From Ilumatobacteraceae bacterium (GTDB taxonomy: Bacteria > Actinomycetota > Acidimicrobiia > Acidimicrobiales > Ilumatobacteraceae), in contig JAHEKY010000008.1 of assembly GCA_024644465.1 (NCBI GenBank), positions 1 to 59,618 of the forward strand: a stretch of 59,618 bases of DNA, read 5' to 3'. The notes beneath the pieces are model-generated. The model saw only the letters and a program-made list of their open reading frames with translations, had not been told where the DNA came from and searched no databases. A program made the position numbers and the translations under genes. Shown here in pieces: positions 55,475 to 59,577 of the stretch (the first letter of the stretch is position 1; every line of letters begins with the position of its first letter).

Positions 55475-56203
55475 TCAGTGCGCTTCGAACATCGCAACGG
55501 CCTTCAATCGCCGTTCGATGTGGAATTCGAGCGCCCTCGTCGCCAGGTGCGAGACCTCGTGGGTGACCGGCGATTCCTCCTGGGCCAACGCGTGGGCGAG
55601 ACGGCCGCCGAGGATGTCGCGGACCGTTTCGAGTGCGCCCTGGCTGAGCGAGTGCCCCGACCGGCAGTTCCGGCAGAGCACACCGCCCTCGCCGAGGTCG
55701 ATCGCGACGAGTTGCGTCTCCGGCTCGCCCTCGCCGCAGCGCTGGCAGGCGTCGAGCTGGGGCCGGAACCCTTCGCTGGCCAGCAGCTTCCAGTAGAACG
55801 CGGGCACGTTGATCGGCGACGGTGCGCCGGCGATCGTCCGCAGCACGCCGACCGCCATGCGGTACAGCTGCTCGTTCGGTTCCCGCTCCATCGAGAGCTG
55901 GTCGACCGCTTCGAGCACGGCGAGGCCCTGCGACGCCCGGTCGAGCGACGACAGCATCGGTGCGAGCGGTTCGACCGACTCGGCCTGCGTGACGATGTCG
56001 AGTTCGCGGCCGCGGTACAGCTGCAGGTTGACGTGGCTCATCGGTTCGAGCCGGGCCCCGAACTTCGACTTCGTCTTGCGGACGCCCTTTGCGACGGCCC
56101 GCACCTTGCCGTTGTCTCGAGTGTGGATCACGACGATCCGGTCCGCTTCGCGCAGCTTGTACGTGCGCAGGATGACCCCGGTGTCGCGGTAGAGCGCGCT
56201 CAC
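55475..56203 (-). CDS. recO: DNA repair protein RecO
   Basis: A 242-residue mediator that loads RecA on gapped DNA with RecR. The OB-fold N-terminus (YRDTGVILRTYKLREADRIV, VAKGVRKTKSKFGARLEPMS) and the zinc finger CQRCGEGEP...CRNC are clear, and the length is normal. The GTG at 56203 overlaps the stop of the upstream cis-prenyltransferase-like gene by 4 bases, so the two are coupled. recO next to uppS is a frequent actinobacterial arrangement (for example in mycobacteria), which ties the degenerate gene to a uppS ancestor. Confidence 0.95.
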   Translation of the reverse strand: MSALYRDTGVILRTYKLREADRIVVIHTRDNGKVRAVAKGVRKTKSKFGARLEPMSHVNLQLYRGRELDIVTQAESVEPLAPMLSSLDRASQGLAVLEAVDQLSMEREPNEQLYRMAVGVLRTIAGAPSPINVPAFYWKLLASEGFRPQLDACQRCGEGEPETQLVAIDLGEGGVLCRNCRSGHSLSQGALETVRDILGGRLAHALAQEESPVTHEVSHLATRALEFHIERRLKAVAMFEAH

Positions 56204-56790
56204 GCGTCGGAGTCGTCGAGCCCGCCGAAGCGGCGCTCACGCTGGGCGAAGTCGGCGAATGCGTCGACGAGATGATCGGCACTCAGCTCCGCCCACCCGA
56301 GCGGCATGAACACGAGCTCGCCGTACGCGAGTTCCCACACGAGCGACGGCGGCAATCGCGTCGACTCGCCGAGCACGACGATCAGGTCCGGCTCGCCGTC
56401 GGCCGGGGCGTACAGCGCCTCGGCAACGGTCGCCTCGTTGACCGGGTCGGCGGGGTCGAGGCGTTGCATCGCCTCCGCGAACCGCTCGCGGCCGTCGCCA
56501 CACGGGTCGATGATCACGTGGCAACCGCCGATGCGGCGTTCCCACCGAGGTTGGTCGACGGCATCGCTGCCCGGCTCGAACGCGCGCAATGTCAGGAACG
56601 AGGCGCCCGCTTGATCGGCGATCGCGCCGAGGGCCGCAACGCGCGCCTCCCACTGCGGTTCGCCGAGCTCCTCCCATTCACGGAGCGTGCCGCCGACGAC
56701 CATCACGTGCCGGAGGAACTGGCGCGTCGAGTCGGCGGTCGCGGCCGGACGCGAGTCCGGAACCGATGTCGATGCCACCTTGGTCGCCAC
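56200..56790 (-). CDS. Degenerate cis-prenyltransferase-like protein (NgBR/Nus1-like partner subunit)
   Basis: A 196-residue homologue of undecaprenyl diphosphate synthase that has lost its chemistry. HVMVVGGTLREW (28-39) aligns with HVAxIMDGNGRW but lacks the catalytic Asp. TLRAFEPGSD replaces TLYAFSTENW, and some 60 middle residues are missing. PDLIVVLGESTRLPPSLVWE (134-153) stands for PDLLIRTSGExRxSNFLLWQ without its pyrophosphate-binding Arg residues. Yet Glu158 (AYGEL) and the terminal RERRFGG with the RxG motif (187-189) are intact. The same mixture marks eukaryotic NgBR/Nus1, the non-catalytic half of dehydrodolichyl diphosphate synthase. The gene is coupled to recO and divergent from catalytic uppS. 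GTG at 56790 is the most likely start. The homology is read directly; partner function is inference. Confidence 0.8.
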   Translation of the reverse strand: MATKVASTSVPDSRPAATADSTRQFLRHVMVVGGTLREWEELGEPQWEARVAALGAIADQAGASFLTLRAFEPGSDAVDQPRWERRIGGCHVIIDPCGDGRERFAEAMQRLDPADPVNEATVAEALYAPADGEPDLIVVLGESTRLPPSLVWELAYGELVFMPLGWAELSADHLVDAFADFAQRERRFGGLDDSDA

Positions 56791-56875
56791 GGCACCATTC
56801 TTCCACGTCGTGCACGCGAATCGGCGTCTGTCGGTGCTCGCCGACGGACGCCACACCGCAGTACCGTGGAGAGCC

Positions 56876-57553
56876 GTGCCCCGCGACGAATCCGACCACC
56901 GCCTCCATGTCGCCTGCATCATGGACGGCAACGGCCGGTGGGCCGGTCGGCGCGGCCTACCCCGCACCGAGGGCCACACCGCCGGCGAGGAGAATCTCGC
57001 CAAGCTCGTGCGCGTCGCCGTCCGCCGGAACATCGGCTGGCTGACCGTCTTCGGCTTCTCGACGGAGAACTGGCGGCGACCGAGGCCCGAGGTGCGGCAC
57101 ATCCTCGGCCTGCACGAGAAGCTCTTCGGCCGAGTCGCCGAGCTCAACGAGCTGAACGTCAAGATCCAGTGGATCGGCCGCCCCTTCGACTCGCGGGAGG
57201 CCCGCACCCCGAAGTACGTGCAGCGTGCGATTCGCAAGGCGATCGCCGACACCGCCGACAACACGGGCATGGTCCTGACGATCGCCTTCGACTACGGCGG
57301 CCGCTCCGAACTGGTCGCCGCCGTCGAGAAGGCCCGCACCGATCCGGCCGGCATCACGAGCTCGACGATCGGCGATCACCTCTATCTCCCCGACCTGCCG
57401 GCGGTCGACGTGCTCGTCCGCACGAGCGGCGAGCGGCGCGTGTCGAACTTCCTGTTGTGGCAGGCGGCCGGCGCAGCGATCTACTTCACCGAGGCGCCGT
57501 GGCCGGACTTCGACGAAGCCGAACTCGACGCGGCGCTCGCGCTCGCTCGATGA
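56876..57553 (+). CDS. uppS: Undecaprenyl diphosphate synthase (cis-prenyltransferase catalytic subunit), lacking the C-terminal RxG
   Basis: A 225-residue cis-prenyltransferase that extends farnesyl or geranylgeranyl diphosphate with isopentenyl diphosphate to make the lipid carrier for wall and glycan synthesis. Asp17 in HVACIMDGNGRWA, FGFSTENW (59-66), FDYGGR and the Arg-rich VRTSGERRVSNFLLWQ (181-196) are intact. Two things are missing: the conserved Glu of the AELYF stretch is Ala201 (QAAGAAIYF), and the protein stops at LDAALALAR without the usual RERRFGG tail. Eukaryotic DHDDS shows the same losses. GTG at 56876 follows TACCGT (56862-56867) by 8 bases. Its stop overlaps the helicase start by 4 bases. 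Confidence 0.9.
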   Translation: MPRDESDHRLHVACIMDGNGRWAGRRGLPRTEGHTAGEENLAKLVRVAVRRNIGWLTVFGFSTENWRRPRPEVRHILGLHEKLFGRVAELNELNVKIQWIGRPFDSREARTPKYVQRAIRKAIADTADNTGMVLTIAFDYGGRSELVAAVEKARTDPAGITSSTIGDHLYLPDLPAVDVLVRTSGERRVSNFLLWQAAGAAIYFTEAPWPDFDEAELDAALALAR

Positions 57554-59577
57554 CGATCCCGTCGTCGGACTCCGCGCCGCTCCCCGGCGACGAGCCGACC
57601 AACGGCGGGCGACAGCCCAACGATGACCCGGCGCCCGACGACCGGCCGACCGACGGAGCCCGATCCACCGACGATGCCCGGCCCAGCGACGCAGCCCGGC
57701 ATCCCGATGTCGTTGCTTCGCTCGCCGTGGCGACCGCTGCGCTGGTCGGCGCGGAGGACCGGCCGGGGCAGGTCGAGATGGCGGAACGCGTCGCCGCGGC
57801 AATCACCGAGAAGCGCCACCTGGTCGTGCAGGCCGGTACCGGCACCGGCAAGACGCTCGCCTATCTCGTTCCGGCGATCACGGAGAAGCAACGGGTGATC
57901 GTCGCGACCGCGACCAAGGCATTGCAGGATCAGCTGGCGAACAAGGACCTGCCGTTCCTCGCCGAGCACCTCGACGTCGCGTTCGACTTCGCGGTGCTCA
58001 AGGGCCGCAGCAACTACGTCTGTCTGCAGCGACTGCGTGAGATGAGCAGCGGCGACCAGGGCCAGCTCGAGCTGGACACGATGGCGGTCACGACGCAGGC
58101 CGAGATCAAGAAGATCGCCGACTGGGCAGGGAACTCCCCCACCGGCGACCAGGCCGAGCTCGACTGGGCACCTTCGGACAACGCATGGCGGTCGGTCAGC
58201 GTCGGCAGCGACGAGTGCCCGGGCGCCGACAAGTGCCCGCTCGGTGACCCGTGCTTCGCGGAGCAGGCCCGCCGGCGCGCCGCGGTGGCGGACGTGATCG
58301 TCGTCAACACGTACCTCTACGGCCTCAACGTGGCGAGTGGTGGCGCGATCCTGCCCGACCACGACGTCGTCGTGTTCGACGAGGCACATGTCCTCGAGGA
58401 CACGATGAGCGACACGGTCGGCGTCGAGATCTCGCCCGGCCGGTTCACCGCCCTCTCGGGCGTCATCCGCCGGATCATCGACGACCCGAAGCTGACCGGG
58501 TCGGTCGCCGAGATCGGCGAAGGGCTGCGCGACGTGCTCAGCGGGCACGTCGGAGAACGGTTGACGTCGCCGTTGCCCGACGAGATCCAGGAGGTTCTCA
58601 CCGACGCTCGCCTGCGACTCGGCGATGCAAACGACACGCTCGTCGCGATCAAGACCGACAACGAGGACGCCGGCCAGCGTCGCCTGCGGGCCCAGATGAT
58701 GACCGGCCGGGCGATCGAGCAGCTCGACATCGCGATCGAGGGTCGTGAGGGCCACGTCGCGTTCGTGTCGGGGTCGCGCGACAACCCGCGCCTCGAGATC
58801 GCCCCGCTCGACGTCGGGCCGACGATGGACGAGGGCGTCTGGTCGAAGCGGACCGCCATCCTGACGAGTGCGACGATCCCGTCGTCGCTCGCCGACCGAG
58901 TCGGCATCCCGTCCGCCGAGGTCGACCTCGCGGACGTCGGCAGCCCGTTCGACTACGAGCACAACTCGATGCTGTACAACGCGATTCACCTGCCGAACCC
59001 GAACAGCGAAGGATTCCGGCCGGCCGTGCACGACGAGTTGGAGGCGCTGATCACCGCCGCCGGGGGCCGCACCCTGGCGCTGTTCACGAGTTGGCGGTCG
59101 ATGGACGAGGCGGCCGACGCGCTCCGCAGCCGGATCGACTTCCCGATCCTCACCCAACGCGACCTGCCGAAGCCCGCGCTCGTCAAGGCGTTCGCCGACA
59201 GCGAGGCGACCTGTCTGTTCGCGACCGCGGGCCTGTTCCAGGGCGTCGACGTGCCCGGCCAGACGCTGTCGTTGGTCGTGATCGACCGCATCCCGTTCCC
59301 CCGGCCCGACGACCCGCTGTTGTCGGCGCGCCGGGAGTTGCTCGGCCCCGCGGCGTTCAGCCAGATCGACATCCCGCGGGCCTCGATGATGCTCGCCCAG
59401 GCGTGCGGCCGGCTGATCCGCAACTCCACCGACAAGGGTGTCGTGGCGGTGATGGACCCCCGCCTCGGCAAGGCGCGCTACCGATGGGACATCGTGAACG
59501 CGCTCCCACCGATGAAGCGCACCCGCCACCGCTCCGACGTCGAGGACTTCCTGCGCGCGATCCGCGACGAGACCTGA
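57550..59577 (+). CDS. ATP-dependent DNA helicase, DinG/XPD-like
   Basis: A 675-residue superfamily 2 iron-sulfur helicase that unwinds DNA 5' to 3'. A disordered Asp/Pro/Arg tail (1-50) precedes Walker A AGTGTGKT (Lys101). The Fe-S cysteines are in NYVCLQRL and DECPGADKCPLGDPCF. Walker B is VVFDEAHVL (Asp277-His280). Domain 2 carries LFATAGLFQGVDVPG and the arginine-finger motif AQACGRLIRN. Length and order match actinobacterial DinG-like proteins without the exonuclease domain. The ATG overlaps the uppS stop (ATGA), so the two are co-expressed. Confidence 0.94.
   Translation: MTIPSSDSAPLPGDEPTNGGRQPNDDPAPDDRPTDGARSTDDARPSDAARHPDVVASLAVATAALVGAEDRPGQVEMAERVAAAITEKRHLVVQAGTGTGKTLAYLVPAITEKQRVIVATATKALQDQLANKDLPFLAEHLDVAFDFAVLKGRSNYVCLQRLREMSSGDQGQLELDTMAVTTQAEIKKIADWAGNSPTGDQAELDWAPSDNAWRSVSVGSDECPGADKCPLGDPCFAEQARRRAAVADVIVVNTYLYGLNVASGGAILPDHDVVVFDEAHVLEDTMSDTVGVEISPGRFTALSGVIRRIIDDPKLTGSVAEIGEGLRDVLSGHVGERLTSPLPDEIQEVLTDARLRLGDANDTLVAIKTDNEDAGQRRLRAQMMTGRAIEQLDIAIEGREGHVAFVSGSRDNPRLEIAPLDVGPTMDEGVWSKRTAILTSATIPSSLADRVGIPSAEVDLADVGSPFDYEHNSMLYNAIHLPNPNSEGFRPAVHDELEALITAAGGRTLALFTSWRSMDEAADALRSRIDFPILTQRDLPKPALVKAFADSEATCLFATAGLFQGVDVPGQTLSLVVIDRIPFPRPDDPLLSARRELLGPAAFSQIDIPRASMMLAQACGRLIRNSTDKGVVAVMDPRLGKARYRWDIVNALPPMKRTRHRSDVEDFLRAIRDET

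Follow-up and report, generated by a model that had tools for sequence, protein, structure and literature searches.

Can the enzyme that makes the carrier lipid of a bacterial cell wall be divided over two genes? The question is raised by two neighbouring genes in a stretch of 59,618 nucleotides (the window) from an Ilumatobacteraceae bacterium (contig JAHEKY010000008.1 of assembly GCA_024644465.1). Both match the PF01255 profile of cis-prenyltransferases, the family of undecaprenyl diphosphate synthase (UppS), and we call them CAT and REG. CAT (56876..57553, plus strand) encodes a catalytic subunit of 225 amino acids; REG (56200..56790, minus strand) encodes a non-catalytic, cis-prenyltransferase-like subunit of 196 amino acids with an RxG tail. 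Both start with GTG, and their divergent start codons are separated by an 85-bp gap (56791..56875) that presumably holds the promoters of both. The usual UppS of bacteria is a homodimer: each chain has a catalytic pocket and an RxG tail that closes the pocket of the partner, and the tail binds the diphosphate of isopentenyl diphosphate (IPP) across the dimer interface. The analysis presented here indicates that CAT and REG very probably make up an undecaprenyl diphosphate synthase that is obligately heteromeric and originated in this bacterial family, with the tail of REG completing the active site of CAT.

The two products differ in the part of the enzyme that they retain. CAT matches positions 1-208 of the 219 of the profile (E 3.3e-63, 213.6 bits, with a cut-off of 27). 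It carries the motifs DGNGR, FSTENW and SGERRxSN, including the catalytic Asp17 (56924..56926, plus strand) in the column of E. coli D26; however, Ala201 (57476..57478, plus strand) occupies the column of E. coli E213, and the C-terminus (LALAR) lacks an RxG motif. REG matches positions 133-219 only (E 3.6e-12, 46.7 bits, same cut-off). Its C-terminus reads RERRFGG followed by six residues, and Arg187-Phe188-Gly189 (56224..56232, minus strand) is the counterpart of E. coli R242-F-G244 and, judging from the human NgBR tail, of NgBR R290-L-G292. Glu158 (56317..56319, minus strand) lies in the E213 column, and a leader of about 26 residues precedes the conserved core. The original prediction, made from the sequence of the window, had the coordinates, divergence and spacing of the genes right, as well as the motifs lost and kept by each; the split is not a chance pattern, as it is found across the loci of the family.

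To describe the family, we assembled 107 loci (the window, 26 loci from a profile search and 80 fetched stretches), chosen by us among the matches listed, which extend to about E 1e-62. Residue columns follow the numbering of E. coli UppS in an alignment that also included 34 full-length UppS, of which four come from Ilumatobacteraceae and the other 30 from elsewhere in the order. CAT is present in all 107 loci, and a divergent REG lies beside it in 101. The pair co-occurs through the family, a check that had been proposed with the original prediction. Twelve residues (D26, N28, R30, H43, S71, N74, W75, R77, R194, E198, R200 and S202) are invariant in the 107 CATs. In the 101 REGs, the D26 column is always Gly, S202 is replaced by Pro in 100 and R194 by Val or Ile in 97, and leftovers of the catalytic set are R200 (45 REGs), S71 (30) and N74 (2). 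The reciprocal pattern is found at the other end of the protein. Y211, E213, R239, R241, R242, F243 and G244 are invariant in 101/101 REGs, while Tyr211 is missing from every CAT (Gly stands there in 75) and Glu213 has been lost in 100 of the 107. The residues found in CAT at the latter column are Lys (43), Ala (23), Arg (13), Pro (8), Glu (7), Gln (6), His (4), Ser (2) and Asn (1). Gly is absent from the G244 column in every CAT, and none has an RxG tail at the usual columns. W207 is invariant across CAT, REG and full-length UppS.

In contrast, D26, Y211, E213, R242 and G244 occur together in 34/34 full-length UppS, in agreement with the statement of the original prediction that homodimeric UppS carries all motifs on one chain. 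Neither CAT nor REG combines the catalytic residues and the RxG motif. Instead, the pair consists of a catalytic chain and a non-catalytic homologue with an RxG tail, and the latter resembles the superfamily in its C-terminal part only, as expected of a heteromer. Hence, the proposal that the losses are complementary, and that the enzyme is heteromeric, finds support in reciprocal conservation at family scale. The median pairwise identity among REGs is 39%, and the tail is invariant even so, despite the loss of the catalytic residues of REG itself. These patterns suggest that annotation would tend to call REG a partial UppS and CAT a truncated one.

We considered whether a REG-like tail might be hidden past the CAT stop codon. 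In the window genome, a profile match that extends to position 217 and contains one TGA is a run-through of that stop. The idea was rejected, as CAT ends with TGA, TAA or TAG depending on the genome.

CAT also shows residues that are fixed or nearly so and differ from the UppS of the order: Gly 69, Ile 85, Phe 93, Trp 109, Thr 116, Asp 130 and Asp 144. At the A69 column, Gly is found in 107/107 CATs versus Ala in 32/34 full-length UppS. It is possible that these residues help to set chain length or shape the interface, and changes such as Gly at A69 might alter the length of the product.

The original prediction had pointed to a third, complete uppS, together with full activity of CAT alone, as a contrary finding. 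No such uppS was found in the genomes searched. The source genome (82.9% complete) has two PF01255 matches, CAT and REG. Across the family, 208 of 221 genomes have a match at E <= 10, and 193 have two or more by our table count, although at such a permissive threshold some second matches are perhaps noise. A full-length match (1-219) is found in four of the 221 genomes only (G270, G352, G353 and G259); it is the sole match in each, and neither CAT nor REG was found there. No complete UppS accompanies CAT and REG among the matches listed for the 221 genomes. Further complete copies should have appeared, because the four known ones score 2.8e-71 or better and the matches listed reach about E 1e-62. 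G134, G006 and G254 (99% complete), each assembled in one contig, show two matches and no more at E <= 10. Where a genome had one match or three, it was re-examined, and the extra matches turned out to be weak pieces, split genes or second copies of CAT. On the basis of the checks in the window genome, in the family and in these exceptional genomes, the possibility that a complete UppS had been missed elsewhere was rejected. In one genome (G191, 98% complete), REG lies at a contig start and CAT was not found. MraY consumes the carrier lipid, and mraY was found in 7/7 genomes tested.

Within the class sample, REG is confined to the family. A REG profile was run on this sample of 296 genomes, and the CAT query on a phylum sample of 396. 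All family genomes but one (22 of 23, G352 being the exception) match the REG profile along almost its full length and score at least 120 bits. In the 273 class genomes outside the family REG was not found: no match exceeds 101.2 bits, and the matches begin at about position 40 or later, which is where ordinary UppS matches begin. In the order, 143/148 genomes have a PF01255 match; genomes of the other families usually have a single one, and two occur in six genomes. Five of these (G031, G079, G081, G116 and G147; loci L276-L280, families f31 and f29) have a second full-length cis-prenyltransferase with DGHRR(F) instead of DGNGR and an RRFG tail of its own, and one (G094) has two PF01255 halves, both at contig ends. 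A pattern scan of one genome per species over 84,980 species yielded 167 relatives, 80 of which were kept. Their record titles are mostly Ilumatobacter, Ilumatobacteraceae, Acidimicrobiaceae and unplaced Actinomycetota metagenome-assembled genomes, with a few evidently mislabelled; Ilumatobacter nonamiensis YM16-303 (L153) is a named strain among them. From these named loci, a REG alignment holds 64 of 79 frames plus the window, and a CAT alignment 58 of 71 CATs plus the window.

Predicted structures are in line with the division of residues. The single-chain model of CAT (predicted local distance difference test, pLDDT, 86.5; predicted template modelling score, pTM, 0.86) matches E. coli UPPS 1x07 with a VIA Z of 27.3 over 216 aligned residues (root-mean-square deviation, rmsd, 2.3). 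The model of REG (pLDDT 89.2, pTM 0.81) matches solved cis-prenyltransferases with VIA Z up to 11.9 over 161 aligned residues (rmsd 3.3-3.7). Hence, both models have the cis-prenyltransferase fold. According to our matching of structural elements, the stretch that forms a2, a3, bC, a4 and bD in CAT corresponds to a short hairpin in REG, and the C-terminal helix of REG is long and reaches the tail. In its model, therefore, REG appears to lack the helices that form the product tunnel. In human DHDDS the tunnel is partly built by a2 and a3, and NgBR has no cavity (PMC7573591; this and the other papers are cited here for excerpts of their text). What the tail does can be seen in Rv2361c of M. tuberculosis, where Arg292 of the partner chain touches Mg-bound waters and the substrate phosphate (PMC6450523).

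Selection on the genes was examined using the ratio of nonsynonymous to synonymous substitutions (dN/dS) and pairwise distances in those 60 named loci where CAT, REG, recO and a helicase gene are all in view; 255 pairs fell within the dS limits. Median dN/dS was 0.22 for CAT, 0.47 for REG, 0.25 for recO and 0.35 for the helicase gene, values of which only the sign is safe, as NG86 is a simple method and dS is high. REG stays below 1 in all 255 pairs, each at 0.865 or less. Its frame is intact (at least 169 amino acids) in 78/79 named-locus frames, and in L203 as well, and RRFG is present in the 79 frames checked. In partial correlations of distances, CAT-REG yields an r of 0.48, CAT-recO 0.37, REG-recO 0.24, CAT-helicase 0.09 and REG-helicase 0.06. 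CAT distances thus follow those of REG best and hardly follow those of its operon neighbour, the helicase gene. The view that REG is a pseudogene was rejected in light of its invariant residues, its dN/dS below 1 and a tail kept in 101/101 REGs; the original prediction had likewise taken REG for a gene in good order.

The position of REG provides a further clue to its origin. Downstream of REG lies recO (55475..56203, minus strand), with RecO_N and RecO_C domains in Pfam, and downstream of CAT a DinG-type helicase gene (57550..59577, plus strand) with Helicase_C_2 and DEAD domains. REG had been described as fused to recO. This is not the case: the stop codon of REG and the start of recO merely share four bases (GTGA), and an overlap of the same length (ATGA) links the CAT stop and the helicase start. 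In the 30 best-scoring loci of a search of the order (148 genomes), a single uppS adjoins recO without exception; the helicase gene is visible in 11 of them, and there it diverges from uppS-recO. Exceptions elsewhere in the order are G002, G101 and G018, with no uppS within view of recO. A member of the family, G270 (L033), has a single uppS in this ancestral arrangement. In the split state, REG holds the place of the recO-linked uppS of relatives, and CAT sits just upstream of the helicase gene. Our best reading is that the split arose within Ilumatobacteraceae.

The CATs group in a single clade (100/100), with a long branch and placed outside the UppS of the order, in a tree of 11 of 12 outside UppS (L319 was left out), 31 of 41 order UppS and 11 of 107 CATs. 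Grouping CAT with the UppS of the order is also compatible with the data (approximately unbiased test, p-AU 0.41), and CAT may be a duplicate of the recO-linked uppS or may have come from elsewhere. REG also forms one clade (100 in the Shimodaira-Hasegawa-like approximate likelihood ratio test, SH-aLRT) in a tree built without the five second copies L276-L280; long branches make its placement among the UppS of the order unsure. The branching order of G270, G352 and G196 at the base of the family is unsettled in an rpoB tree, where G000, G353 and G259 have no usable row.

Nothing stands between the helicase gene and recO in G352 and G353; the complete UppS is located elsewhere. It groups in the tree with copies from families f3 and f18. 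A distinct clade of full-length UppS (100/100) comprises genus g136 and families f3 and f18 (L034 and L035 of G352 and G353, L281-L283 of G002, G101 and G018, and L036 of G259 listed), and RRRRMG is found near the C-terminus of the UppS of L281 and L282. It looks as though the native uppS was replaced by a foreign copy in that clade.

The orientation of CAT and REG is divergent in 101/101 pairs read. Three of the six CAT loci without REG are contig ends (L040, L086 and L131). In the other three (L038 of G173, L039 of G150 and L070 of G247), another open frame adjoins CAT, unrelated in the case of L070. A further copy of CAT is found in G173 on a different contig, where REG lies about 2.3 kb away. 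In L166 REG lies about 10 kb away, and we infer that L166 is the same contig as L070. A distance of about 2.3 kb between CAT and REG is seen in L336, L221 and L222. Strict adjacency is therefore not needed, as the pair is apart in these loci and other frames lie beside CAT elsewhere.

Heteromeric cis-prenyltransferases with this division of labour are known outside bacteria. The closest parallel is human DHDDS/NgBR (NUS1; PDB 6z1n, 6w2l and 7pb1), made of a catalytic chain and a dead chain of the same superfamily. The RxG motif comes from the dead chain and reaches over the dimer interface (PMC7573591), as predicted for REG. NgBR, like REG, resembles cis-prenyltransferases in its C-terminal part only (PMC7839719). 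By our column matching, human DHDDS reads LLWQTSHSCLVF at the site of E. coli Y211-A212-E213, with H/S/C versus Y/A/E, and NgBR reads PWHIRLTEIV and ends in QRLGK, thus keeping the Trp, the Glu and RxG. DHDDS therefore lacks the Tyr/Glu site as CAT does, and NgBR keeps the Glu as REG does. Unlike DHDDS, CAT stops short and has no helix-turn-helix domain; unlike NgBR, REG is nearer to bacterial UppS in sequence. NgBR has a transmembrane domain at its N-terminus. With the REG profile, the best UppS chain reaches E 1.1e-22 and the best NUS1 chain 5.8e-6. REG was accordingly rejected as an orthologue of NgBR/NUS1. NUS1 chains are not among the 50 structure matches shown for the REG model, which excludes nothing. 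The description of REG as NgBR-like in the original prediction is thus apt for a way of working and not for descent: REG may work like NgBR, with a likeness in mechanism, and the bacterial split appears to have arisen separately from the human one, within one family. The accompanying comparison is better made with DHDDS/NgBR than with yeast Rer2/Nus1, since Nus1 has an Asn in place of the RxG arginine and is not canonical (PMC7573591, PMC7839719).

Other systems are instructive as well. CAT and REG share with homodimeric UppS (E. coli IspU, M. tuberculosis Rv2361c) the fold, the catalytic residues of CAT and a likely reaction and role; they differ in that the motifs are divided over two genes. 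Archaeal heteromeric cis-prenyltransferases exist. M. mazei MM_0014 lacks RxG as CAT does; however, it was crystallised as a homodimer, and the excerpt of its report describes no RxG partner (PMC8131916). Bacterial two-gene prenyltransferases are also found in HexA/HexB of Micrococcus luteus and HepS/HepT of Bacillus, which differ from CAT/REG in their trans stereochemistry; the fold of trans-prenyltransferases is unrelated to that of the cis enzymes. One chain of HexA/HexB is catalytic and the other may set chain length (PMC7839719).

By analogy with known homologues, CAT and REG would dimerise through the usual cis-prenyltransferase interface, and Arg187-Phe188-Gly189 of REG would close the CAT pocket and bind IPP. 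Each dimer would have one working active site, in CAT; either chain alone would work poorly; and the product would be the carrier lipid of peptidoglycan, as may be expected where mraY is present. We favour a heteromeric UppS because the losses in CAT and REG are reciprocal at fixed sites, because no other cis-prenyltransferase was found in the genomes, and because a complete UppS and the pair were never seen in the same family genome. The location of REG at the recO-linked uppS place, the lack of the a2-a4 stretch in its model (as NgBR lacks a cavity), the same division of Tyr/Glu and RxG in DHDDS/NgBR and a dN/dS below 1 in every pair lead to the same conclusion, as do the invariant tail of REG and, as weak evidence, the closeness with which CAT distances follow those of REG. 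We also regard as likely, with somewhat less assurance, the fuller statement that the obligate heteromer is independent of the eukaryotic one, divides residues as DHDDS/NgBR does, has a single active site in each heterodimer and supplies these bacteria with all of their carrier lipid for peptidoglycan.

Several observations weigh against a heteromeric UppS. Some cis-prenyltransferases are active without RxG, such as MM_0014, which ends in TLGG (PMC8131916), and DHDDS without its partner is still active, although about 400-fold less so (PMC7573591); by analogy, CAT alone might keep some activity. Glu persists at the E213 column in 7/107 CATs, and the CAT of L094 (G196) ends in SRQGS, with an R-x-G triplet beyond the usual columns. 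The median dN/dS of REG exceeds the 0.22-0.35 of its neighbours, which speaks for loose constraint outside the tail region. The recO-helicase partial r is higher (0.58) than that of CAT and REG though no interaction is known, so the CAT-REG correlation counts for little. Of the genomes with a complete UppS, G259 is 72% complete, with a broken rpoB and recO not found, and the absence of the pair there proves little for that reason. Finally, single copies of REG are damaged in draft assemblies: one in-frame stop is found in L173 (740-1260; one of 80 named loci), another in L233 (G186; 1893-2430) beside unread bases, and in G150 REG is present only as frameshifted pieces at a contig start.

These observations can be framed as alternative explanations. 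One is that CAT is a tail-less homodimer that works alone, while REG has a separate function, for instance in the regulation of CAT or as a binding partner of some other protein. The activity of MM_0014 and of lone DHDDS lends it some credit (PMC8131916, PMC7573591). We consider it unlikely, however, as the very residues that work in trans on the pocket of a partner are among the invariant ones of REG, the only pocket found is that of CAT, and both genes are missing from the family genomes with a complete UppS. A different possibility, which we deem less likely still, is that the heteromer makes another polyprenyl product, with a longer or shorter chain, or a lipid unrelated to the wall, while the wall carrier is made elsewhere. 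The fixed changes of CAT such as Gly at A69 would fit, and known heteromers are mostly long-chain enzymes (PMC7839719). Against this, no other PF01255 protein was found, mraY is present in 7/7 genomes, and an altered chain length would also fit a heteromeric UppS. That REG might be what is left of the former recO-linked uppS, in decay after takeover by CAT, is very improbable. Its raised dN/dS and the damaged copies in L173, L233 and G150 speak for decay; however, RRFG is retained in 101/101 REGs and in 79/79 named-locus frames, a median identity of 39% implies long retention, and REG is found in 22/23 family genomes of the class sample.

As for precedent, searches of the open-licence literature of PubMed Central, a collection that leaves most subscription literature outside, gave no bacterial heteromeric cis-prenyltransferase in the titles and abstract openings listed, for several searches the top of a longer list, nor in the excerpts of PMC8131916, PMC7573591, PMC7839719 and PMC6450523. 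A review describes homodimers in bacteria and plants and heteromers typically in fungi, metazoans and plants (PMC7839719). Heteromeric enzymes are associated with long chains, and a mutation in the NgBR tail causes disease in humans (PMC7573591). If our reading is true, an essential enzyme for the cell-wall lipid carrier has been split into two genes in one bacterial family, and the pair would provide a small model for human DHDDS/NgBR. The confinement of the heteromer to one family among the genomes sampled, a single-gene relative in the ancestral arrangement (G270) and a named strain (L153) make the transition from homodimer to heteromer testable, along with the question of whether heteromers are tied to longer chains.

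Two minor observations may be added. REG loci of Ilumatobacteraceae type are found in L208, L209 and L221-L223, titled Bifidobacterium breve or Ferrithrix thermotolerans; these are probably mislabelled metagenome-assembled genomes. In the phylum, weak CAT scores in family f102 raised the possibility of a second heteromer, which was rejected upon finding that the two match pieces lie within one open frame. The PF01255 match of f102 UppS (L322-L324 and L330-L332; G480, G519 and G461) is broken around profile positions 89-103, which suggests an insertion at that site.

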